From: Echinicola sp. 20G
GTDB lineage: Bacteria > Bacteroidota > Bacteroidia > Cytophagales > Cyclobacteriaceae
Direction: 5' to 3'
Length of the DNA: 64,000 nt
Assembly: GCF_015533855.1 (NCBI RefSeq)
Contig: NZ_AP024154.1
Coordinates: forward strand, 5,353,501-5,417,500
Under the pieces are notes generated by a model. That model saw only the letters and a list, made by a program, of their open reading frames with translations. It searched no databases and was not told the origin of the DNA. Shown piece by piece: positions 3,101-15,165 of this stretch; within the stretch, counting starts at the first letter, position 1, and each line of letters begins with the position of its first letter. The position numbers and the translations under genes are program-made.

Positions 3101-4840
3101 TCATAGTAAAAGGTTTAAGTCTTTTATCAGGTTTTTAAATTCTAGTTCAGTTCTATCATATATTTTCTCGCATGCATCTAAAAAGTTATCACCAATTTCA
3201 TTCTTTTCGATGCCAAATGTTTTTAATGCACTATCCATTTTATCCCCGAGTTTTCTTCCTGTTTGATGTGAATCCAACTGCCTAAGAGTATTGATGGCAC
3301 TTAATATCTTGATCAACTCGATTTCCGCAAGACCATTTTCTAGTCTTATGTTGATCTCTTTTGAATCACTTTTAGAATTTAAACCTGTTTCTTTGGCGAT
3401 CTTTAGGTAGTTTAATATGAGGTTTAAAAGTTTTATGCTTCGAAATACTTCACCTTCACTTTGTTTGAAACTGTTTAGATCAATCCCTAAAACCTGTGTT
3501 GCAGCCTTCCTTAAATTCTTTTCTACTAAATTTTCAATTAGAAAATGGTGAAGTTTTTTTATACGGTTTAGAAAACTCTCTCTTAAAAGCTTGTGGGCAA
3601 GATGATTTGATATAGGCTTAATACTATCATGATTTGACCAACCATAATAATTTAATTGTTCTCGATCTAGTTTTATTAGCTCTTCCGTTGAAATGGTCTG
3701 GTCTCCACAGTAGGAAATAATATTTGATAACCATTCCCCAAAATGAAAGTAGCTATAAACCAGCTTTTTTGCTTTTATGGCAATATGCTCAGCATCAAGA
3801 TCAATACAAGATATGTCTACCGAAAATTTATTCCAATAAGATATTACCTTAAAAGGAGTACCTTCATAAAGTTTAAAAAGCTCCAGTTTTATATGATTTC
3901 TACCAATTCTTGAAGTACGAGAAACAGACCATTGGTTTTTATAGCTAACACTTCCTGATTCAGGGCATACCGTATAATTATCATCTTGCTCATAAACATC
4001 TAACACCTCATCAGAGACGTATACATACTCCCAGTGTTTCGCATTACTTCGGGTTATCGGTTCCTTAAAGCCCGGCCATATAAGATCCTTCTTGTTGTCC
4101 CATTTACTAAAAGGAATTTCATCTCCCAACTTGATTTCCCTGAATCCGGTTACTTCTGCAAAGTACTTATCATCTAAAGTCTTGAGTATTCTAAAGTGAT
4201 TATACTTTGTTGTTTTTTCAAAATGTTTGTTTTCACCTAGTAGTTCTTGAATTTCAGGATCACCTTCTAATATCCTTGTTTCACAATAAACCTGAATCAA
4301 GACCTTTTTCTTTAGCATTAGATAATCCTGCAAATACTCCTTTCTAATTTGAACAAAGCTTTTAGAGTATTCGGGAAAATCGTAAACAGACTTTGGAATA
4401 GATACTACAACATCCATCATGGGCTTACTCAAGTCATCCCAATAAATAATTTCCTCCGTTAGCCTAGGAGTAAGACCATACGTTAATAGGAACATAGGGT
4501 CTGGCTGGAAAGTAATATTATTTGCAGATTCCCATGATAATATTAATGGATGCACTTTTTCTAACCCTGCATGATTTGAGACGAATACAGAGGAAGAACC
4601 ATTATATTCATAGGCTTCATCATAGAAGGGGCGTACAGAGCTATTAGTTGTTGGGTTGATCTCCTCCGGGTTAATAAACTGGATGAGCTCCGAATCAATT
4701 AGTAAACTTTGATAATCCCTTGAGGATTGTGTACCATCCTTTAATTTATGTGTTATAAGTTCACTTACATATAAGTAATTACCTTTTAGAGGATTGAACT
4801 TTTCAACATCGGCAAAGATTTTAGGGTACCAGTTTTCCAT
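3101..4840 (-). CDS. Unknown 579-aa protein, last gene of the restriction-linked operon
   Basis: I do not recognise the family. The 579-residue product has no signal peptide or membrane segment. The first 300 residues are mixed alpha/beta with many aromatic residues; the last 200 look all-helical (for example residues 400-579, rich in Leu, Lys and Glu). No Walker, HNH, PD-(D/E)xK or methyltransferase motif was found by eye. It lies 77 nt behind the RelA/SpoT-fold gene, on the same strand, as the fifth gene of the run that starts with the methyltransferase at 9509. That position suggests a partner, sensor or effector in a defence unit. The start at 4840 is the only good ATG at the head of the frame. 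Confidence 0.7.
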   Translation of the reverse strand: MENWYPKIFADVEKFNPLKGNYLYVSELITHKLKDGTQSSRDYQSLLIDSELIQFINPEEINPTTNSSVRPFYDEAYEYNGSSSVFVSNHAGLEKVHPLILSWESANNITFQPDPMFLLTYGLTPRLTEEIIYWDDLSKPMMDVVVSIPKSVYDFPEYSKSFVQIRKEYLQDYLMLKKKVLIQVYCETRILEGDPEIQELLGENKHFEKTTKYNHFRILKTLDDKYFAEVTGFREIKLGDEIPFSKWDNKKDLIWPGFKEPITRSNAKHWEYVYVSDEVLDVYEQDDNYTVCPESGSVSYKNQWSVSRTSRIGRNHIKLELFKLYEGTPFKVISYWNKFSVDISCIDLDAEHIAIKAKKLVYSYFHFGEWLSNIISYCGDQTISTEELIKLDREQLNYYGWSNHDSIKPISNHLAHKLLRESFLNRIKKLHHFLIENLVEKNLRKAATQVLGIDLNSFKQSEGEVFRSIKLLNLILNYLKIAKETGLNSKSDSKEINIRLENGLAEIELIKILSAINTLRQLDSHQTGRKLGDKMDSALKTFGIEKNEIGDNFLDACEKIYDRTELEFKNLIKDLNLLL

Positions 4841-4917
4841 TTTATTCTTGATGACCTGAAGCTTTTAGATTGTATGATGTATCCTTAGGCCCATATGTTC
4901 TGTATAAACCTTTTCTT

Positions 4918-5895
4918 TTAGATTTCAAGACTAATTTTATTTGCTTTGACAACGTTTCGTAATTCATTTATTCCCATTTCAGGGGATATAAGTAATTTAT
5001 ATCCTCTGGTCTTTCTTTTCCTAAGGTATGAAGTGACTTTACTCTGCTCCTGCATGTATATGGATTTTATTATTACCTGAAACGGGGAAAGGTTTTTAGT
5101 TAATGTTCCTCTTCCGGATGCTGTCTCCTTTTTTAGGATACCTTCAAGGTCTTTTGGTGAAATGTCTAGTGTTTCAATCAGCGAAATTACGTTCTGAGCT
5201 AACCTTCTTTTGTCGTTTGGAAGATCATCTTTTTGAAATAATTGAGACAGTAAAATAATGACCCTATTTGTCTTTTTAACAATTTTATTCTCTTTTGCAA
5301 GTTCATTAACTTTACTGAGATTGTTGGCTCCACTAATGGCAACCTCAGCTTGTTCCAACGCCGCTTTTACTTGAAAGGCGACTCTTTCCTTACCCCAAGC
5401 TATACGGTCAGTTTTGTAGATTATATCATGGGTTGCGATAGACCACGCATGTTGTAAAAATGTCTTGATCTGGACTTCAAAAATAAACGTCTTTATATCT
5501 GGGTTGATCGATCCGATGTATTTGTCTCCAAGTCTACAATAAAGTCTTAAATCATCAAATGGAAAACTATCTGTACTTTTAAAGGTATAACTTTTGCTAT
5601 TAGGTTTTTTTTCAACTATTTCAAATAATCCCTCTATCAGTTTTTCGGAATTATCGATCTCATCCAAATTTTCAACTACCAAAGTACAAGCATAGAAATC
5701 ATGAAATATACTGTATTTATCGAACCTTCCTGTTTCCAACTTTAAAGCAAAGCTTTCAATTGTTTTAAGTCGGTCAACAAAGTGCCAAGTTTTCTTTTTT
5801 CGTAAAACCAAGGTTTCTGAAACTCGTTTTTGAAGAATCCCATAGAATTCCTTTTTCGAGTTAAATAAACTTTGTACTGATTGAACGATCTTCAT
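4918..5895 (-). CDS. RelA/SpoT-fold nucleotide pyrophosphokinase-like protein
   Basis: 325 residues. The RelA/SpoT synthetase signature is clear: a DRLKTIESFALK segment (R42, K44, S48, K52), an HDFYAC strand with Asp 66 where the metal-binding Asp is expected, and EVQIKT at 140-145 followed by HAW and THD (149-157). The usual substrate-stacking loop is altered (KYIGSI rather than YxSxH), so the acceptor base or activity may differ from (p)ppGpp synthesis. The C-terminal 150 residues are a helical extension of unknown role; no HD hydrolase, TGS or ACT domain is present, so it is a small stand-alone synthetase. Its ATG overlaps the stop of the DUF262 gene as TAATG, a sign of translational coupling. 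Toxic small alarmone synthetases (toxSAS, CapRel type) are known in phage defence; a similar role here is inference. Confidence 0.75.
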   Translation of the reverse strand: MKIVQSVQSLFNSKKEFYGILQKRVSETLVLRKKKTWHFVDRLKTIESFALKLETGRFDKYSIFHDFYACTLVVENLDEIDNSEKLIEGLFEIVEKKPNSKSYTFKSTDSFPFDDLRLYCRLGDKYIGSINPDIKTFIFEVQIKTFLQHAWSIATHDIIYKTDRIAWGKERVAFQVKAALEQAEVAISGANNLSKVNELAKENKIVKKTNRVIILLSQLFQKDDLPNDKRRLAQNVISLIETLDISPKDLEGILKKETASGRGTLTKNLSPFQVIIKSIYMQEQSKVTSYLRKRKTRGYKLLISPEMGINELRNVVKANKISLEI

Positions 5896-6935
5896 TAGGT
5901 AAGCACATTCGTTAATGCAGTTAAGCGATTATTTCTTTGGGTAAAGTCTGTACTAGCTCCTCTGGAGTTCTCATAATAAAGGATATGATTCTCGTTAAAG
6001 CGATCCTCTTCTTGGTTTTCCTCGCTAATGTTTGAAACGGTCTCCATAAATCTTCTATAATTAGTAGCTAATTGATTGACATCTGGTGATTCAGCTGTGG
6101 CTAAAGCTGCCCATAGTGTATAAAAGTTATTGTTCGATCCTCCGGCAAACTCACTGATACAGCCATTGATTTGTTCCATCTGTTCAATAATGTCTTTTAA
6201 CATTCTGACCCGGTCAAGTACTGCTTCGGGCTCAAATCCATTATTCTCAATAAGCTCATCTATATCATCATAAGTTGCATATGTTTCATCGATATTAGAT
6301 TGGTCAAAACCAGATATTTTACCTTCGATCATGATCATGAACAGTTCTGAAATAAATTGAACATTCCTCATTCTCTTATCTCTACCTCGTGTACTGATCT
6401 TAAATCTCCACCAAAAATCGTTTTGGGCTTCGTTTTCGACCTCATTGACAAACCATCCATTATATCTGGCATGTCGTAGTTCTTGAGGTTGTAAATTTCT
6501 AGCATTCCTGTTAACCCTATCAAATACCTCTTCAATATTATTTCCTTCGATGCTGTCAATAAAGTCTACAACCAAAGTATAATCCCAAAATCTACGTTTA
6601 TATTCTACAGAAAGGTCTTTAAATTTCTTACCATTTAAGTTAACATCCCCATAGTCAGTTCCAATTGCTATTTTGCTATTAGCAAATGCAATTATGGTTT
6701 CAAGCCGCTGTTTACCGTCCACAACATGATATTCTGTAAACCCATTGTCATCTATAGTCCTGTGAATAAAAACTGGAGGTGCTGGGTAATTTCTAAAAAT
6801 CGTATCCAAAAAGAAGCGTTTGTCTTTAGCACTCCAAACGCTTTTTCTTTGGTAAGGAGGTGATAGGTCAAGTTGTCCGTTTCTGTCCAGGTCCAGAAAC
6901 CAAGTGATTTGCTGAGTTGTTGGCTGTCTTGTCAT
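5895..6935 (-). CDS. DUF262 (ParB/GmrSD-N-like) protein
   Basis: 346 residues. The N-terminal DUF262 domain is plain: PPYQRKSVWS at 26-35 and VVDGKQRLETIIAF at 71-84, the latter the usual DGxQRxxTI nucleotide-binding/hydrolysis motif of the ParB/Srx-like fold. The C-terminal half is helical and lacks the DUF1524 HNH nuclease that completes GmrSD type IV restriction proteins, so nuclease activity must come from elsewhere or be absent. It starts 5 nt behind the endonuclease gene and overlaps the RelA/SpoT-fold gene by one base. DUF262 proteins often act with restriction systems as NTP-dependent sensors; here it sits between the restriction pair and the alarmone-synthetase-like protein. Confidence 0.8.
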   Translation of the reverse strand: MTRQPTTQQITWFLDLDRNGQLDLSPPYQRKSVWSAKDKRFFLDTIFRNYPAPPVFIHRTIDDNGFTEYHVVDGKQRLETIIAFANSKIAIGTDYGDVNLNGKKFKDLSVEYKRRFWDYTLVVDFIDSIEGNNIEEVFDRVNRNARNLQPQELRHARYNGWFVNEVENEAQNDFWWRFKISTRGRDKRMRNVQFISELFMIMIEGKISGFDQSNIDETYATYDDIDELIENNGFEPEAVLDRVRMLKDIIEQMEQINGCISEFAGGSNNNFYTLWAALATAESPDVNQLATNYRRFMETVSNISEENQEEDRFNENHILYYENSRGASTDFTQRNNRLTALTNVLT

Positions 6936-6940
6936 AATAT

Positions 6941-7912
6941 TTATCTAGGCCCCATAAATCTGTCACCATTGAAATGGATCATATGATCGGGTATATCCAT
7001 GATCCAGACTTCGGTTTCCCAGGCGATTTCTTTAGAGTGTTTCTTAAATTCGGCAAAATCAGGAAAGGCGGTAACATAAACCTTTCCTACTTTACATTGT
7101 GATAAAAGTGCTTCCAATTCTACAACACGTTTTGGAGATACCGGACCATGGGAAGTTACTGCTTCGATCAGATAAAGCCATTGTTTACCCTCATCGTATA
7201 TAACAACATCCGGTAATTTACTATGTTGGTCTATTGGTATTCCTAACGCACCTAAAGATTCAGTATCGATGTAAAGATCCTTTTTGGCGGTATCTCCTAT
7301 GTATAAAACTTTTGATTCTTTGGCAAATCTAGGCGCAAAATCTTCTACGATGGCTTTTTGTACCTCGTTGTGCCTGCCCGGACTTAGTTTTAATTCAGTG
7401 CCATCGCTCAAAGTAACTGGTATAAGATCTCCGGCGCGCTCTTTCGCATATCGGGCTTTTAAAGATCCGACACTATTGACAAAAGCTTTGGATGCACTTG
7501 CCCATGCATCTGTCCCATATGTCTTAATGGCCTCTAATGCTTCATCAGTGATGGCATAATGAGTTCTGGGACTGTTGACAGGAAGGTCAGGAATGTCCGG
7601 GTTGAGATCTACTAACCTTGCTTGTACAAATTGATGTAAGACTTGACGCCTGACGGTCTCCCTGGTGTTAGGGGCATATTCTTTTTGGTAGGTATCAGAG
7701 ATAAATTGCATGATGCCTTTGGTTACTCTTTTGCTATTCTTGGTAGCATCTTCCCATAAAGTGTCTTCGGCAATCCCTGCCATCGCCAATAAGGTATATG
7801 CAGAAATCTCATTCTGCTGAGCAGGAGGTAAACCTAATGTCTTTAATATCTCTTGTGCTTCTTCTAGTTTGCCCATATTTTGAGGAAATAGTTTCAAGCT
7901 GGAATCGCTCAT
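6941..7912 (-). CDS. BsuBI/PstI-type restriction endonuclease
   Basis: 323 residues, the usual length for the family. The N-terminal 150 residues are helical. The C-terminal catalytic region carries GDTAKKDLYID (206-216), LPDVVIYD (233-240) and LIEAVTSHGPVSPKR (248-262), which is the typical BsuBI/PstI signature, with Asp 235 and Glu 250 as likely metal ligands. Members cleave CTGCA^G as type IIP enzymes; that specificity is family knowledge and unproven here. The reading frame overlaps the methyltransferase gene by 104 nt from the ATG at 7912 (or 68 nt from the internal ATG at 7876). The hexamer CTGCAG occurs several times in this window, including inside the methyltransferase gene, so the host DNA would need methylation. 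Confidence 0.88.
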   Translation of the reverse strand: MSDSSLKLFPQNMGKLEEAQEILKTLGLPPAQQNEISAYTLLAMAGIAEDTLWEDATKNSKRVTKGIMQFISDTYQKEYAPNTRETVRRQVLHQFVQARLVDLNPDIPDLPVNSPRTHYAITDEALEAIKTYGTDAWASASKAFVNSVGSLKARYAKERAGDLIPVTLSDGTELKLSPGRHNEVQKAIVEDFAPRFAKESKVLYIGDTAKKDLYIDTESLGALGIPIDQHSKLPDVVIYDEGKQWLYLIEAVTSHGPVSPKRVVELEALLSQCKVGKVYVTAFPDFAEFKKHSKEIAWETEVWIMDIPDHMIHFNGDRFMGPR

Positions 7913-9509
7913 TTACAACTTGGTTTATAATTTCTACACTAAAAATTTCTATTTGCATTAATTGTCTTCCGATCTCTTTAATGGTCTCATGAGGTGGTAA
8001 TGGCATTAATCTCAATTCAGTTGCACTTACATTAACATTACCATTGAGTATCCTGAAAAACTGATCGAATATCGTACTGTTTAGCAACCCGGCAAGACCA
8101 AAGATCTCACATTCTTCTAACTCTCCGTTCGGACGATATATATAATTCAGTTTATTCTCAACTCCAATATGCGTTGCATTGCTCGATCTTGAAAAGTATG
8201 GGGTTGCGATCAATCTGCTTTTATCATCTTTGCTACTGAATCTCCGTAAAAGAAGATAGTTCTTGTTGGGGATCAATATAGGTAATGACCTTTCTTGTAT
8301 AAGGATATATTGTCCTTTGTTGGGTCTGGTCAAAGGCCAGGTAAGCTTCATTTTGGATACATTATGTAGCCAAAATAATGGTGCTGGATCAAATGCCTCT
8401 TCGGAGGGCTCTACTTCTTTAATATGATCCCACGCTCTATGAGCCACTACCGGTCCTGTAGATATCTGGATATTATAGGTGTTCAATGTCCCCTTCCATG
8501 ATCGGAATAGTTCAACTATTGCTTTTTCTTTTTCACTGATAGGGAGATAAACCATTTTGTCCAAAGAGTCATACTTGATCACCAGATCTGCAGGTAAAGT
8601 GATCGTTTCAGGTGCTTCCAAGTCTTTTATCCCATTTGAAGAGGTAACTGTTATTTCATCATTATGCGCATTGTTCTCCTTTGGAAAACATTTGAGGATC
8701 ATTGTTTCTTGTAAAACCTTATCCTTACTGAACGTATCTTTTCTTGAGTGGAACAAATGGGCTTGTTCAATATTAACTTTATTGAAAAAGTTGGTCCTGA
8801 ATGCTTGGAAATAGCTCCCGGAGCTGAAACTTCTAGGTGTAATAAAGATCAATTCTCCACCCTGGTTTAAAAGTTGCGCAGATACAGCCATGAAAATAGC
8901 ATAAATATTTGCATGTCCATTGACCACTGATTTAGCAGCCAGAGTACGTTCGTCGTTTTTTGCAAGCTTGAAATAGGGAGGGTTCGATATTATAATGTCA
9001 AACGTTGCTTCATTTTCATCATTAAACAAGCTTGTATAAGTAGCTAGGGCAACTTTGTTTGCGATGACAAAATCGTCTTTATGGATGGAGTACTCAAAGT
9101 TAACGTCTTTACCGAAGCACCACTGCTTCAAATTTTGAAGAACACTTTCCGCATAGGGGATAATACTTGCATCTGTTTCATAACAAACAAGTATTACTCT
9201 TTCTATCCCGGGACCCTTGTTTATCAATTCTTCAATTAAACAACTGGATAATATGCAGGTACCACAACCTGGATCAAGAATGGATATCACGCCTGTCCTT
9301 TCTCTCGCCATGGAGGCCATAAAACGGGCAATGGATAATGGCGTAAAGAATTGCCCTTTTCTCTTCTTCTCTTCCGAAAGGGATAGCTCGGCATATAAAG
9401 CACCGGCTTTATCGGCATACGTACTTGGGCGATCTTCTTTAATACAGTTTGAAATATCCACTTTTTCTATGCTTTCACCTGTCATATCATTATTATAAAA
9501 CTTTATCAA
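7809..9509 (-). CDS. Adenine-specific DNA methyltransferase of the PstI/BsuBI type
   Basis: 566 residues. It has QFFTP at 53-57, motif I DPGCGTC at 79-85, an acidic YETD at 110-113 and catalytic motif IV NPPYFK at 176-181, the gamma-class N6-adenine order. The region after 350 is the target-recognition part and includes typical late motifs such as LLNSTIFDQFFR. It would protect the site cut by the endonuclease encoded directly downstream. It is the first gene of a five-gene minus-strand run ending at 3101. An 89-nt nested inverted repeat lies directly before its start, which may control expression. Confidence 0.9.
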   Translation of the reverse strand: MIKFYNNDMTGESIEKVDISNCIKEDRPSTYADKAGALYAELSLSEEKKRKGQFFTPLSIARFMASMARERTGVISILDPGCGTCILSSCLIEELINKGPGIERVILVCYETDASIIPYAESVLQNLKQWCFGKDVNFEYSIHKDDFVIANKVALATYTSLFNDENEATFDIIISNPPYFKLAKNDERTLAAKSVVNGHANIYAIFMAVSAQLLNQGGELIFITPRSFSSGSYFQAFRTNFFNKVNIEQAHLFHSRKDTFSKDKVLQETMILKCFPKENNAHNDEITVTSSNGIKDLEAPETITLPADLVIKYDSLDKMVYLPISEKEKAIVELFRSWKGTLNTYNIQISTGPVVAHRAWDHIKEVEPSEEAFDPAPLFWLHNVSKMKLTWPLTRPNKGQYILIQERSLPILIPNKNYLLLRRFSSKDDKSRLIATPYFSRSSNATHIGVENKLNYIYRPNGELEECEIFGLAGLLNSTIFDQFFRILNGNVNVSATELRLMPLPPHETIKEIGRQLMQIEIFSVEIINQVVNERFQLETISSKYGQTRRSTRDIKDIRFTSCSAE

Positions 9510-9760: not shown

Positions 9761-10504
9761 CTATTCCGATATGGAGTCTCTTTTTTCCTGACCGTTCACT
9801 AATAAGCTATCCTCAAATTCTTTGATGACGTTCTCTTGTTGATCATTAAAAAGCTGGCCTTCTTGAATACCATGGCAATAACCATCATTATCACTTTGGG
9901 ATTCTTTACTAAACAATATGGCACTGCATATTGTGATCACTAGAACGCCTGTAAATATATTGGCCAATTTAAAAGAATGGTAAGATTGGATCAGGTGGGT
10001 TGCTTTGATATTGTTAAGTCTGGTATTTACTGTTAAACTGCTTAACAGGTCCTGAACGATCTCATGATGAAATTTTTCAATGCTGTTATGTTGATGCTTG
10101 ATCACATTATTTCCGGAAGGACTTTGGTATTGGTAGTTCTTAAGTTTATAATTCTTCAAGGCATTCTTTAATGTCAGCATGTACAATAAAAATGCAACGA
10201 CCAACAAAAACAGACAAATACATTTCAGCGCAAAAGGGATACCGACTGTTTTATCGATCAACAGCGGAACAAATAAGCTGAGCAGAGAGAATACCAAACC
10301 TGTTTGGGCGATCATTTGGGATGTTTTCGCTTCAAAAGAAGCCAATCGCTTGTCCTCATCATCCAATAATTTTTCCAGAAAAGCTCTATGGGCCTCCGAA
10401 TATTCTGAGGCTTTCTTGTATTCATCCTTATTATAGTCAGGGGAAGGACCCTGAGAAACTAACAGGAGCCCGATGGATCTTAATAATTGCTTTATCATAA
10501 TCAT
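9761..10504 (-). CDS. Membrane protein in the graspetide-like operon
   Basis: 247 residues. A charged N-terminal helix (about 25-62, ending ASFEAKTSQ) leads into three predicted membrane segments at about 66-84, 92-112 and 180-198; the tail is acidic and likely cytosolic. There is no ABC, peptidase or acetyltransferase motif, so it is not a standard RiPP exporter. The layout of a cytosolic coiled helix followed by a helical hairpin in the membrane recalls SLATT-type or Pycsar-TM-type effector proteins of conflict systems; this is a resemblance by eye only. It starts 4 nt after the ATP-grasp gene, so it is very likely translated from the same message. Possible roles are exporter, immunity factor or membrane-acting effector. 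Confidence 0.65.
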   Translation of the reverse strand: MIMIKQLLRSIGLLLVSQGPSPDYNKDEYKKASEYSEAHRAFLEKLLDDEDKRLASFEAKTSQMIAQTGLVFSLLSLFVPLLIDKTVGIPFALKCICLFLLVVAFLLYMLTLKNALKNYKLKNYQYQSPSGNNVIKHQHNSIEKFHHEIVQDLLSSLTVNTRLNNIKATHLIQSYHSFKLANIFTGVLVITICSAILFSKESQSDNDGYCHGIQEGQLFNDQQENVIKEFEDSLLVNGQEKRDSISE

Positions 10505-10508
10505 ATTT

Positions 10509-11423
10509 TTAGGCTAACTCTTTGATCAAGGATTTTGTCAAGGGAAGTCCGGTCTGTTGTTCGATCCATACCCATTGCCCATTTGGGTTGATCTCTAAAA
10601 AAACATAAGCTCCATCTTTTTTTCTGATCAGATCAATCGCTCCGAACCTTAACCCGAGGGTATCCACCAATTTAATGCATAGGTCGGAGATAGCTTGTGG
10701 CAATGAAAAGACCTGGAATGGTAACCGTTCTCTACGCCAATCCACTTTGGTTTCTTCATGTGCTTGGGAGTCCACTTTAGCGGCAAATACTTGTTTCCCA
10801 ATTACAGTAGCCCTTATTTCTATGTCTTTATCGATATACTCCTGAAAGATACAGGGAGTAAGGTCATACTCTTTTATATTAGAGATCATCTCTTCAGGCA
10901 CCATATTGGTAAAAAGCAAAAAACTGTTATTCCCATTTTGACTTCTTGTAACCCCCAATGGCTTGACGATAATATTCCCTTGATGCTTTTTATAGAAGCT
11001 GGTTAACTCGTTTTTTTGGTTGGTTACAAGAGTGTCTGGAAGCAGGAAGCCTAAAGCAGCCGCCGTCTTTAATTGTAATAGTTTGTTTTCAGCATGATAA
11101 ACTTTATAGGGAATGCTGACCCATTTTACATCAAGGATAGAAAACAGATTGTCCAAAAAATATTCAGTTTCCTTTAATACATAATTTCGGTCTTCCAATG
11201 GTAAGTGGTTCAGGTCAGGCAACATCGTTCGCCTGAACCAGACTGACCTAAAACTTTTCTCACCCAACATGGATGTATTGAATGTATCTTTGATACTAAT
11301 ACTCCAGGGATACTCAAGTATATCCTCGCAATTCAATCGTTTATAGGGAATACCTTCTTTATTTAGGTTATTGATTACAAAATCAACAGTAAAGTCCCTT
11401 TTATGGGTTATGATCAGGATCAT
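10509..11423 (-). CDS. MvdD-like ATP-grasp peptide ligase (graspetide macrocyclase family)
   Basis: 304 residues, normal for the family. The N-terminal pre-ATP-grasp region has the VWFRRT strand (61-66) typical of MvdC/MvdD-type enzymes. The ATP-grasp core shows ENKLLQLKTAA (112-122), VKPLG (153-157), FQEYIDKDIEIRATVIG (193-209), FGAIDL (260-265) and EINPNGQWVWIEQQTGLPL (277-295), where the Glu/Asn pair binds metal-ATP. Enzymes with this signature join acidic side chains of a precursor to Thr/Ser (ester) or Lys (amide) side chains. It starts 9 nt after the repeat-bearing precursor gene, which fits such a pathway exactly. Only one ligase is present, so only one bond type (ester, from the Thr-rich core) is expected. 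RimK-like Glu ligases lack the WIEQQTGLP end, so I consider this assignment strong. Confidence 0.88.
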   Translation of the reverse strand: MILIITHKRDFTVDFVINNLNKEGIPYKRLNCEDILEYPWSISIKDTFNTSMLGEKSFRSVWFRRTMLPDLNHLPLEDRNYVLKETEYFLDNLFSILDVKWVSIPYKVYHAENKLLQLKTAAALGFLLPDTLVTNQKNELTSFYKKHQGNIIVKPLGVTRSQNGNNSFLLFTNMVPEEMISNIKEYDLTPCIFQEYIDKDIEIRATVIGKQVFAAKVDSQAHEETKVDWRRERLPFQVFSLPQAISDLCIKLVDTLGLRFGAIDLIRKKDGAYVFLEINPNGQWVWIEQQTGLPLTKSLIKELA

Positions 11424-11432
11424 ATGCTATGT

Positions 11433-11771
11433 TTAGTCCCTATCTGTTGATTCCAGTTCTGTTCTTGTAAAGGTGGAGGTTTCCATTAGTCTTTGCATGC
11501 TGAAACGATCACGGTCACTGTCCGTACCTTCGTTATAATCCAATGTATTGGTTATAGTTTCCATTCGAATACTCATCATATTCTTATCTGAATCGGAGGC
11601 CTCTCCAAAATATTTAGTACCTGTAACTGTCTCCATTCTATAACTATCAATAGCGGGCAATCCTGTCATGCTATCTATAGTAAGATTCTGGCTTTCGTCA
11701 TAAACCAAATAGTCACATGGATCGCATTCTTCCAAAGGCTCTTCTTTAAATGCTAATACAAAAGGCTTCAT
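11433..11771 (-). CDS. Graspetide-like precursor with three core repeats
   Basis: 112 residues. The leader begins MKPFVLAFKEEPLEE, close to the PFFARFL-type recognition helix of microviridin precursors. Then come three copies of one motif in exact register at 46-62, 70-86 and 96-112: M-E-T-x-T-x-T-x4-E-x-[S/T]-D-x-D. Each repeat offers three Thr (+2, +4, +6) and three acids (+11, +14, +16), so each could form three side-chain esters. The last repeat ends at the last residue. Spacers (63-69 and 87-95) differ in length. Two Cys (16, 19) and several Asp lie in the leader. The gene is followed by the ATP-grasp ligase after 9 nt. A cryptic non-RiPP acidic protein is possible but unlikely given this register and the neighbour. 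Confidence 0.82.
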   Translation of the reverse strand: MKPFVLAFKEEPLEECDPCDYLVYDESQNLTIDSMTGLPAIDSYRMETVTGTKYFGEASDSDKNMMSIRMETITNTLDYNEGTDSDRDRFSMQRLMETSTFTRTELESTDRD

Positions 11772-11861: not shown

Positions 11862-11944
11862 ACTAACTGCTTTATTTTCCAAGTAGACTCGAAGTGGCAT
11901 ACTCGCCCAGTCGGAGGCTTTCCGGCCACATGAATGCTGATTAA
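11862..11944 (-). repeat. attC-like element C behind the DUF2971 gene
   Basis: On the minus strand it starts TTAATCAGCATTC, overlapping the TAA stop of the DUF2971 gene, continues ATGTGGCCGGAA like elements A and B, contains the GAGTATGCCACT repeat also seen at 3041-3064, and ends near GCAGTTAGTC. Only the first 25 nt are clearly shared with A and B. The stretch 11772-11861 between here and the precursor gene probably holds the promoter of the graspetide-like operon, but no box was certain. Confidence 0.45.
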
Positions 11945-12768
11945 TTATTAGTCAAAGATTTTATTTCTAATTGGCCATTGGTCATTGAACAAATTTTGAA
12001 TTCCACCTGCAAATTTTGGTTTTCACAAACTCCCATGATTTGTCCTTTTGTTTCTTCGTCAGTGTTCCACCCAAAAATAACCTCTTTGTAAGCTTCAGTT
12101 GGAATTTCTATTTGTCTATCATCGATAGTAGCAGGGGCTGGATAGAATTTATGAGTTCTGTATTCTTGCTCAAACTCCCATTTTCTTTCTTTAGAAAACA
12201 CCTGTTTAAATCGTTCTACTTCGAATTTATCGTTATGCAATATGTCTGGCAATTTATCATAATACTGTACTGGACCACCTCCTCCTAAATGATTAAACAG
12301 TATTTTAGGGTCAAATCCAGCACAAAATCCACTGCCGTTGCCACTGTATTTATTCCACATATCCAGATTGGCGAAGTTTGCTGTAAGACTTAAAACCCCA
12401 AAACGTTTATCGTATTCCAAGAAGTCCTCTTCTTGCTGCTTTTTTACAAAATCATGGTTTTTTAGAGGGCTATTCTTTGTCCAGTCTCTTGCAAATTTTC
12501 TGTGTTGCTGTCTAGTCCAATTCGGATGCTCCTTTTTTGATACCATAAAATATTTTTCATAAATATCTTTTTCAGTCATTAAGTCATAACGTTTAAGCAG
12601 TTTACAGTCTCTTTTGTCTTCAAAACTAGTTGGAGGTGCCATGAAAACAATTCGTTCTGTTAAAATGGTCTTCTGATATTTATCGTTCCATATACGATAT
12701 TTATAGATAGTATCTGGAATATCTGGCCATTCATCAAAAGATAGCTCTCTTACTTCTCCTAGTTCCAT
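11941..12768 (-). CDS. DUF2971 family protein
   Basis: 275 residues. Typical DUF2971 features are the early IYKYRIW (21-27), the ERIVFMAPPTSFEDKRD stretch (38-54) that recalls the usual xLxxSxPxxFNDPFD, then VLSLTANFANLDMWNKYSGNGSG in two parts followed by FCAGFD, matching the common CFS......MW..YA....G.CIGF pattern. The biochemical function is not known; members are common in accessory DNA and next to defence genes. It stands alone between two attC-like elements, as a single-gene unit, with about 160 nt of non-coding leader before the ATG at 12768. Confidence 0.75.
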   Translation of the reverse strand: MELGEVRELSFDEWPDIPDTIYKYRIWNDKYQKTILTERIVFMAPPTSFEDKRDCKLLKRYDLMTEKDIYEKYFMVSKKEHPNWTRQQHRKFARDWTKNSPLKNHDFVKKQQEEDFLEYDKRFGVLSLTANFANLDMWNKYSGNGSGFCAGFDPKILFNHLGGGGPVQYYDKLPDILHNDKFEVERFKQVFSKERKWEFEQEYRTHKFYPAPATIDDRQIEIPTEAYKEVIFGWNTDEETKGQIMGVCENQNLQVEFKICSMTNGQLEIKSLTNN

Positions 12769-13900: not shown

Positions 13901-13912
13901 TGGGCTTAGTTG
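13901..13912 (-). repeat. 3' box AACTAAGC at the Shedu-like gene (element D)
   Basis: The stop codon of the gene at 13906-15165 is part of AACAACTAAGCCC, which matches the first bases of elements A and B. I could not find a matching second end in the 115 nt down to the next gene start at 13790, so only the box is supported. Confidence 0.35.
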
Positions 13913-15165
13913 TTATTCAATTCTATTACCTGGTCGTAATATTTATTCTTTTGATTCTCCAACCCCTCTAATAATTCATCATATAAAATTATGTCTATGT
14001 TTTTTAGCGACTGCCTCAATACTTTAAAATCATCTCTTTTTTCCTCTGTGTCAAGTTGCTCTGAATGACCAGTTATTAAAATTGCTCTTGGCTTAACTAC
14101 TTTCACATTGATTTTTTCTTCTCTTCTTATATCATCTGCCAAAATCGAAGCTTTTCTCTCGGCATTAAACAAATATTTCTCAGCTTGGACAATAGCTTTA
14201 ACAGTTGTTGTGTGCCAATAAAAGTTACCTCTGTCTGTATCATTTGAAAGTAGAGGGGTTTCAGGCTTTTTAATTTCAAAAATGTCAAGATAACCTTTAG
14301 TATCAATCATGCCGAAATCTACATTTCTGGACCCTCTGAGTATTACATTTAACTCAGGTAATATTTTAACATATTTACTATCTAAAAGGAAAAGATTCTT
14401 TTTAAGGTATTTCCCCCAAAGATTTTCACTTATACTATTTTTAACGTTTTGTTTAAATTCATCTAAAATCCTATCTATTGCTATCGTGTCAACTCTAATC
14501 TTAGTTCTGGCTAATTGTAAAAACTTATGTGAATTACTCTGATATCTTTTATCTAATAACTCTGTAATAAAGCCCTCAAATTTTATTAAATCATCAGGTG
14601 TAAGATGTTCAATAATATCGGTATTAAGATTCTTTATTACATTTCGATATTGTTGTTGTGCCGTACTTGTATTTTCTTCAAATTTATCTGGGAATAGATT
14701 ATAGAAAAAACCATCCAATATATCGTTTTTGCTCCGAGTTGATTGATTATTTACAACAATGAATTTTTCTCTTAATGTTTTGAAATCATCATATTTAAGC
14801 GTGAGGCGGTAACTATCCTCATTACGAACTTTTCGAATTGCACTATCAGAGTCTTTTGATATAGTTAAACTAACAATTGATTTATTCTCTAATTTCTTGT
14901 TAAGATAATACTGAACACCTTGCTTAATATAACCATTGTCTGAAAAATCATCAGGTATTCTATCAAACCCCTCAATTAGGATTTTATTTAGAAAAAAATC
15001 ATCTTCTCGCGGAAAAAATTGAATGGTGTGATTTTGTTTATCAACCCTAAATGCTAATCTTTTAGTTTCAGGATTTTCATCCTCAATCACCCAGTATTCG
15101 GTAATGGTTGGATTTATAATCTCTAATTCTGATTCGTATTTCGGCATAGTAATGCGATTTTTCAA
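13906..15165 (-). CDS. Shedu-like nuclease (SduA, DUF4263 type)
   Basis: 419 residues. The C-terminal 180 residues match the Shedu nuclease domain: ENLWGKYLKKNLFLL (about 246-260), DFGMIDTKGYLDIFEIKKP (about 285-303) with the Asp...Glu-x-Lys active site of the PD-(D/E)xK fold, a helix with Q in KAIVQAEKYL, and a late AILITGH strand. The N-terminal 200 residues are variable, as in other Shedu proteins, and would form the sensing part. Shedu is a single-gene antiphage system that cuts DNA. It ends inside an AACTAAGC box like the neighbouring single-gene units. A perfect palindrome lies about 140 nt before its start. Confidence 0.8.
   Translation of the reverse strand: MKNRITMPKYESELEIINPTITEYWVIEDENPETKRLAFRVDKQNHTIQFFPREDDFFLNKILIEGFDRIPDDFSDNGYIKQGVQYYLNKKLENKSIVSLTISKDSDSAIRKVRNEDSYRLTLKYDDFKTLREKFIVVNNQSTRSKNDILDGFFYNLFPDKFEENTSTAQQQYRNVIKNLNTDIIEHLTPDDLIKFEGFITELLDKRYQSNSHKFLQLARTKIRVDTIAIDRILDEFKQNVKNSISENLWGKYLKKNLFLLDSKYVKILPELNVILRGSRNVDFGMIDTKGYLDIFEIKKPETPLLSNDTDRGNFYWHTTTVKAIVQAEKYLFNAERKASILADDIRREEKINVKVVKPRAILITGHSEQLDTEEKRDDFKVLRQSLKNIDIILYDELLEGLENQKNKYYDQVIELNNN

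Follow-up and report, generated by a model that had tools for sequence, protein, structure and literature searches.

How does a gene for a RelA/SpoT-fold (RSH) protein come to lie behind a type II restriction-modification (R-M) system, and with which of its neighbours does it form a unit? The question is raised by Echinicola sp. 20G, in a 64,000-nucleotide stretch of contig NZ_AP024154.1 (positions 5,353,501 to 5,417,500; hereafter the window). Here, genes for a DNA methyltransferase, a restriction endonuclease (REase), a DUF262 protein, the RSH protein and a 579-aa protein follow one another on the minus strand (Table 1). An initial annotation described these five open reading frames (ORFs) as one system, and its layout is borne out by the ORF list, including spacings of -104, +5, -1 and +77 nt in that order. 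Comparison with related loci strongly supports a smaller conserved unit, a two-gene cassette of DUF262 and RSH rather than five genes, and gives equally strong support to the linkage of this cassette with a DNA methylase. The methylase and endonuclease of the window are variable partners of the cassette.

Relatives of the RSH protein number 892 at an E-value of 0.001, and an alignment of 30 of them was used to find loci. Scans, which require conserved peptide patterns and are non-exhaustive, gave 48 loci in genomes and three in viral contigs; two Rhizobium plasmid loci were added out of five records found, and a search of phage records gave no result. The set comprises 52 loci and excludes the window and L042, the RSH sequence of which is identical to that of L041. 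DUF262 lies upstream of RSH on the same strand in 49 of these loci and abuts it in 47. A junction of -4 nt is the most frequent (10 loci), followed by +2 (eight) and -1 nt (five); ORF starts were set mechanically, and junctions of -158 to -71 nt probably reflect over-long ORFs. The genes do not abut in L052 (RSH N-terminally shortened, no DUF262), L054 (contig edge), L056 (a distant 889-aa protein), L059 (DUF262 broken) and L077 (a transposase gene between DUF262 and RSH). At this last locus, on a Rhizobium plasmid, the transposase gene in the RSH region is of the IS5 family, and DUF262 is annotated as whole. Hosts carry 13 phylum labels, two of them archaeal, besides one Sericytochromatia bin; the bacterial labels are Bacteroidota, Pseudomonadota, Actinomycetota, Acidobacteriota, Planctomycetota, Myxococcota, Gemmatimonadota, Nitrospirota, Chloroflexota, Bdellovibrionota and Cloacimonadota. 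Many labels come from metagenome bins, so individual ones could be in error; judged by its ribosomal-protein-like and RNA-polymerase-subunit-like ORFs, the Nitrosopumilus contig L027 appears to be archaeal.

The order of the first four genes recurs elsewhere (for example in L022, L053 and, with a shortened RSH gene, L041), so their arrangement in the window is not due to chance. The fifth gene does not follow: no homologue of the 579-aa gene was found in the 51 related loci, of which those on about 12 contigs ending less than 2 kb downstream of RSH are less fully covered. The five-gene unit was therefore rejected. Occurrence of the last three genes independently of the restriction pair, which the initial annotation had named as telling against its proposal, applies to the 579-aa gene and not to DUF262 and RSH, which usually have a methylase nearby. 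A single layered defence operon that includes the 579-aa protein finds some support in the shared strand, in the 77-nt gap with no same-strand terminator-like site listed in it, and in a terminator-like site at 3053-3037, just past the 579-aa gene, the count of such sites in the region being no higher than in shuffled sequence. However, besides the missing homologues, five located, distant relatives of the 579-aa protein have no DUF262 or RSH gene in the surrounding stretch (close relatives, at 60-71%, fall outside this comparison), and such an operon is highly improbable.

Table 1. Features of the window discussed in the text (values are E-values)
Feature	Position	Strand	Remarks
DNA methyltransferase gene	7809-9509	minus	566 aa, TTG start; adenine-N6, PstI/BsuBI (Eco57I-like) type; Pfam Eco57I 1.9e-18, N6_Mtase 5.9e-11; PADLOC MTase_II 4.2e-106
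PstI/BsuBI-type type II restriction endonuclease	6941-7912	minus	323 aa; HTH and nuclease domains, both near full length; Pfam BsuBI_PstI_RE 2.6e-63, BsuBI_PstI_RE_N 4.4e-46; PADLOC REase_II 2.1e-112
DUF262/GmrS-like (ParB-fold) NTPase	5895-6935	minus	346 aa; core gene 1, proposed sensor; Pfam GmrSD_N 1.9e-19
RelA/SpoT-fold (RSH) protein	4918-5895	minus	325 aa; core gene 2, proposed effector; Pfam RelA_SpoT 7.4e-9
579-aa protein	3101-4840	minus	adjacent, judged outside the cassette; C-terminal R520-x4-H525; no Pfam family
Membrane-protein-like ORF	9761-10504	minus	247 aa; weak PADLOC match to PycTM (Pycsar effector), 0.004
ATP-grasp protein	10509-11771	minus	RimK-like and MvdD pre-ATP-grasp matches
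DUF2971-like protein	11941-12768	minus	PADLOC candidate defence family PDC-S31, 6.6e-102
Shedu (SduA) defence protein	13906-15165	minus	Pfam 1.8e-27, PADLOC 5.6e-33

A DNA methylase lies within 6 kb of the pair in 42 of the 52 loci by hidden Markov model (HMM) searches, and a C5-cytosine methylase found by Pfam adds L055. The HMMs represent clusters, of which the representatives rather than each protein were checked by Pfam/PADLOC, and the PstI-methylase HMM excludes proteins of more than 640 aa. An NPPY/F motif is present in 22/22 PstI-type, 11/11 MT_440 and 7/8 Eco57I-type cluster members (L010 is truncated by the contig start). Five of the ten loci that lack an HMM-detected methylase have a flank of less than 1.4 kb (L027, L034, L037, L038 and L054); the others are L055 with its C5-methylase, L017 and L057 with R-M-derived genes, L052 (a remnant) and L056 (distant). 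Where flanks are complete, the pair rarely occurs without a methylase: of the 29 loci in which the pair is intact and each flank exceeds 3.5 kb, a methylase was detected in 27 by HMM and in L055 by Pfam, and the last, L057, is a damaged locus whose sole R-M trace is a piece of a PstI-type endonuclease. In 14 of the 29, a methylase is present and no REase of the families modelled here was recognised. The common denominator near the pair is therefore a DNA methylase and not a restriction enzyme, so that a back-up for failed restriction is only one of several readings. The initial proposal, which joined restriction to a nucleotide-toxin back-up, thus stands in part: linkage to R-M genes well exceeds chance and the modelled fold is that of toxSAS enzymes, whereas restriction is not what the loci share.

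The methylase partners themselves are diverse. They include PstI/BsuBI methylases with or without the endonuclease, some of them fused (L028, L033 and L046), a 995-aa type IIG Eco57I-like enzyme together with an M.Eco57I-type methylase (L009, L011-L014 and L059), and MT_440, an N6-methylase of about 440 aa with an NPPF/Y motif (11 loci). In the window, the methylase, which carries the NPPY motif IIISNPPYFKLA, and the endonuclease form a PstI/BsuBI-type type II R-M system with near-complete domains. In two MT_440 loci, L021 and L048, a short PstI-RE-like ORF lies close by; a third, L051, has Eco57I-like and T5orf172/HARE-HTH genes. Pfam detected no REase family in ten flanking genes from nine MT_440 loci, save the Eco57I-like gene at L051; the other flanking genes are housekeeping-type or unfamiliar. 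At L015 (4646-6922) and L017 (1-2116), a PstI/BsuBI HTH domain is fused to an AAA_21 ATPase in the nuclease's place, apparently a restriction enzyme rebuilt into a PARIS-like ATPase. A protein of 218-231 aa follows the fusion, and that of L015 has PDC-M31 and AriA-like matches.

Control loci, with 8-kb flanks where contigs permit, separate the two linkages of the cassette. No DUF262 match was found near 17 distant RSH genes, and no RSH match near 20 other DUF262 loci. Mere frequency of the pair beside any PstI-type R-M system was likewise rejected: 198 genomes of the same phylum as the window yielded 13 other PstI-type REases, none with a DUF262 or RSH match nearby (L171-L173 are distant, at 36-37% identity; contig ends truncate L167, L173 and L170, the last immediately past the REase). 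HMMs built from the test-locus clusters miss other methylase types (one of the 20 other DUF262 loci was positive), and a recount by methylase motif was used instead. It scored 40 of 52 test loci, seven of 20 other DUF262 loci (Fisher p 0.0018) and three of 17 distant-RSH loci (p 2e-5); among the last, Pfam identifies L125 as an RlmL-like rRNA methylase, the motif of which is shared by L130. Eighteen control DUF262 genes have an HMM match. Seven of them have a Pfam-confirmed DNA methylase directly upstream (EcoRI-type in L144, L146, L152 and L159; C5-type in L143, L148 and L154), at least seven are directly followed by a HEPN gene by Pfam (L141, L142, L143, L147, L148, L154 and L158), and three adjoin or are followed by an AAA-ATPase-like gene (L149-L151). 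Both features meet in L143, L148 and L154, where C5-methylase, DUF262 and HEPN_MAE_28990 stand in tandem. A Sulfurovum mangrovi plasmid (L182, 6962-9026) encodes a relative of DUF262 that matches the family profile at E 3e-71. The gene next to it is SIR2-like (Pfam 9e-5, just short of the cut-off) and possibly encodes a further effector. Given the directly adjacent methylases in 7/18 controls, the methylase link is general to this DUF262 branch, whereas the RSH link is specific. Because HEPN, AAA-ATPase-like and SIR2-like genes adjoin the control DUF262 genes, the branch resembles a sensor that is linked to methylases and can be combined with different effectors, of which RSH is one.

These associations suggest a system in which the methylase marks self, DUF262 senses and RSH arrests growth, a reading to which we give a probability of about 0.48. 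DUF262 and RSH would form a translationally coupled unit that works with the adjoining DNA methylase, by which self DNA is marked. DUF262, a ParB-fold NTPase that lacks the customary HNH nuclease, would serve as sensor and switch. Before infection, the switch would be held off by methylation of the chromosome, or by an intact methylase or R-M system; as unmarked DNA builds up, or R-M is overcome, DUF262 would free RSH. The freed enzyme would then move pyrophosphate, or a related group, onto an essential acceptor, stopping growth before phage are made. At REase-bearing loci such as the window, the pair would provide a second line, and at methylase-only loci it would replace DNA cleavage altogether. 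The effector role of RSH is supported by analogy and by residue conservation. A more specific version is rather doubtful: methylase, DUF262 and RSH without an REase may constitute a stand-alone 'restriction without cutting' that also docks as a rider onto complete R-M systems, the rebuilt site of RSH modifying a new acceptor (not GTP/ATP or tRNA-CCA by the usual geometry) on sensing unmarked DNA.

The model of the window RSH protein has a small-alarmone-synthetase fold and a helical C-terminal domain. Fold searches identify the RelA/SpoT synthetase fold found in toxSAS enzymes (CapRel, FaRel2 and Tas1), a profile search matches CapRel at E 0.0064, and PADLOC gives a weak partial match to PDC-S33 (5.7e-7). 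The fold-search matches span residues 1-195; none is listed for the C-terminal domain, for which no separate search was made. Across 94 relatives, with alignment identities to the window protein of about 24-68%, R42, K44, K52, D66, E140, Q142 and K144 are invariant, and S48 is kept in 92. The acceptor-loop (G-loop) Tyr of CapRel (Y155) and FaRel2 (Y128) is replaced by Phe113 in 93/94, a correspondence taken from a weak HMMER alignment (domain E 0.011) and a residue count. The G-loop His is replaced by Arg117 in 93/94, and the position of CapRel Arg116 is Thr in 86/94. The initial description of an RSH protein with retained metal and EVQIKT residues and a changed substrate loop thus extends to the whole alignment. 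Judged by these residues, the donor-base and acceptor sites are altered, and the acceptor is probably unusual because the acceptor-loop Tyr is Phe in nearly all sequences. In contrast to toxSAS enzymes, the protein is also paired with DUF262, has no identified antitoxin gene and extends beyond the fold matches at its C-terminus. The Phe and Thr replacements would also suit a non-toxic RSH that tunes R-M or DUF262 activity, whether as a mild alarmone synthetase or as a subunit that is inactive or regulatory; a passage of PMC11782079 describes FaRel2 with a G-loop Tyr-to-Phe exchange as 'catalytically impaired'. However, an inactive protein would hardly keep seven phosphate- and metal-site residues invariant at such divergence, and a non-toxic role is quite improbable.

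In the DUF262 protein, the motifs YQR, DGKQR and QE.R and the C-terminal R334/R337 are invariant in 42/42 sequences; EHxxP is absent from all 42, and the window protein has no Pfam DUF1524 match. The protein thus shares with GmrSD, BrxU and SspE the DUF262 NTPase domain and its YQR/DGQQR-like motif, whereas their own DUF1524/HNH nuclease was not found and a separate RSH gene stands in its place. An ordinary GmrSD was ruled out by the lack of DUF1524. The nearest named PADLOC models are NsnA (1.3e-32) and PD-T4-2_A (6.8e-18), and a PDB sequence search gave nothing better than E 0.2; a literature search on NsnA brought up nothing pertinent. The DUF262 protein of control L150 scores 8.7e-129 against NsnA and is encoded beside an AAA-ATPase-like gene, in a control set of 20 loci without RSH matches. 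PMC10952713 describes GmrSD, BrxU and SspE as acting on modified DNA or sensing it, and BrxU as complementary to BREX. In the manner of type IV restriction, DUF262 might detect modified phage DNA that defeats R-M and fire RSH instead of a nuclease, thereby complementing R-M. The invariant YQR and DGKQR motifs agree with this sensor, and it would account for the missing motif-specific co-variation with methylases described below. However, it leaves the methylase neighbour unexplained, above all in the 14 of 29 well-flanked loci without a recognised REase, and we regard it as unlikely.

Whether the methylase is a fixed or an exchangeable partner can be read from the RSH tree, which has 51 rows (L042, L054 and L056 excluded) and was built by a quick method that leaves 23 of 48 inner branches open. 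Partner type changes at least nine times on this tree when only rows with a recognised partner are scored, and 15 times with 'none' as a state. Shuffling the partner types 200 times gave a mean of 24.6 changes and never as few as those 15; therefore, partner types are partly inherited. The window RSH protein clusters with seven Eco57I-partnered rows (SH-aLRT 100), its own R-M system being PstI-type. RSH and DUF262 distances correlate with a Spearman coefficient of 0.79 in 21 PstI-type loci, 0.87 in 11 MT_440 loci and 0.60 over 47 loci. In the PstI-type loci, methylase distances are uncorrelated with those of RSH (rho 0.14) and DUF262 (0.08), and REase distances correlate weakly with the pair (0.40, n=12, p about 0.05). 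Since RSH varies with DUF262 and not with the methylase there, the pair is one evolving unit and a rider on PstI-type systems. In the MT_440 loci, RSH, DUF262 and methylase all co-vary (rho 0.87, 0.65 and 0.72, with 0.65 for RSH and methylase), and the pair and MT_440 are possibly an integrated three-gene system.

Co-variation of this kind is also expected of contacting proteins, as in a guard where contact with methylase or R-M proteins silences DUF262-RSH and a phage anti-restriction protein releases it with no reading of DNA. The precedent is PrrC/EcoprrI, in which, as passages of PMC12707154 and PMC3710099 have it, a tRNA-attacking toxin is silenced by linked R-M and freed by T4 Stp. That tRNA-Lys anticodon nuclease resembles RSH in being a putative growth-arrest enzyme genetically linked to R-M, although PrrC is an ABC-ATPase-HEPN protein with a type I system, and RSH belongs to a partner-changing two-gene cassette with type II R-M or a lone methylase. 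However, the lack of co-variation with the methylase in PstI-type loci speaks against a guard, and specific contact should hinder partner swaps of the kind seen in the window, even though partner types are partly inherited on the tree. A guard is as unlikely as the sensor of modified DNA.

Several observations weigh against the scheme of methylase mark, DUF262 sensor and RSH arrest. Reading of a methylated motif by DUF262 predicts co-evolution with the methylase, which is absent in the PstI-type loci. The methylase link is not special to RSH, being common beside other DUF262 genes (7/18), and ten of the 52 loci have no HMM-detected methylase. By analogy with the impaired FaRel2, RSH may have little or no pyrophosphokinase activity. 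Finally, the viral contig L057 has a full-length RSH ORF behind a DUF262 gene split by intervening ORFs, which fits a simple toxin-antitoxin pair poorly.

The closest described architecture is the methylase-ParB/DUF262-HEPN arrangement of Anantharaman et al. (2013, PMC3710099), where the MAE_28990 HEPN family is listed as 'In operon with a ParB nuclease and DNA methylase genes'; in the passage concerned, it is likewise a computational prediction. In both versions, a methylase gene precedes DUF262, and the gene that directly follows encodes a small effector, RSH standing where HEPN would. They differ in the effector, which by Pfam is RelA_SpoT here and not HEPN_MAE_28990, and in the methylases, which are mostly N6-adenine enzymes, often with a full R-M system, unlike in the HEPN version. 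Among the matches listed from open-licence PMC full text, none describes a system of DUF262, RSH and R-M, in agreement with the initial claim of no known precedent, and within these literature searches the methylase-DUF262-effector architecture with an RSH-fold effector is new. If the proposed scheme is true, an alarmone-synthetase-fold effector is tied to methylation-based self/non-self recognition, as predicted for HEPN RNases in the sister architecture. Type II R-M would then gain a general second line comparable to PrrC, methylation could license a toxin without any nuclease, and RSH would have an acceptor site unlike those of the alarmone and toxSAS enzymes compared here.

HEPN RNases are marked by an R-x4-6-H motif in an all-helical domain. 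In the 579-aa family, R520 and H525 are invariant in 29/29 aligned rows, and the model of the window protein is helical in its C-terminal part, from residue 353. Because of this invariant R-x4-H, the sequence suggests a separate HEPN-like protein. Pfam gave no HEPN/ApeA match in the 29 members and merely sporadic matches otherwise, and two relatives carry the source label 'ApeA N-terminal domain-containing'. Foldseek with the whole model returned nothing at E 0.001, an N-terminal Avs3-like match alone standing out. A PDB sequence search gave nothing better than E 0.2, and no family member was found in viral contigs.

A close RSH sequence occurs in the host genome alone among 59 genomes (its own and 58 relatives, ten of the same genus), where other matches are at E 1.7e-8 or weaker; across 395 genomes of the phylum, the host included, matches outside it are at 7.6e-16 or weaker. 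This absence from the other relatives searched suggests that the window RSH gene was acquired horizontally. The host has a second, distant RelA/SpoT-fold gene (G000:C1:4120840-4121175; a 337-aa open frame, PDC-S33 1.2e-12), and distant matches to RSH also occur in four of the ten same-genus genomes. In 2-kb windows, G+C content is 0.31-0.40 from position 1 to about 17 kb and 0.46-0.49 at 17-23 kb. The genes at 3-10 kb, together with the PDC-S31 and Shedu genes, are a low-G+C defence island. The ATP-grasp gene adjoins a 112-aa ORF that has acidic stretches and three 'METxT'-based repeats, and the two look like a graspetide (microviridin-like) peptide cluster.

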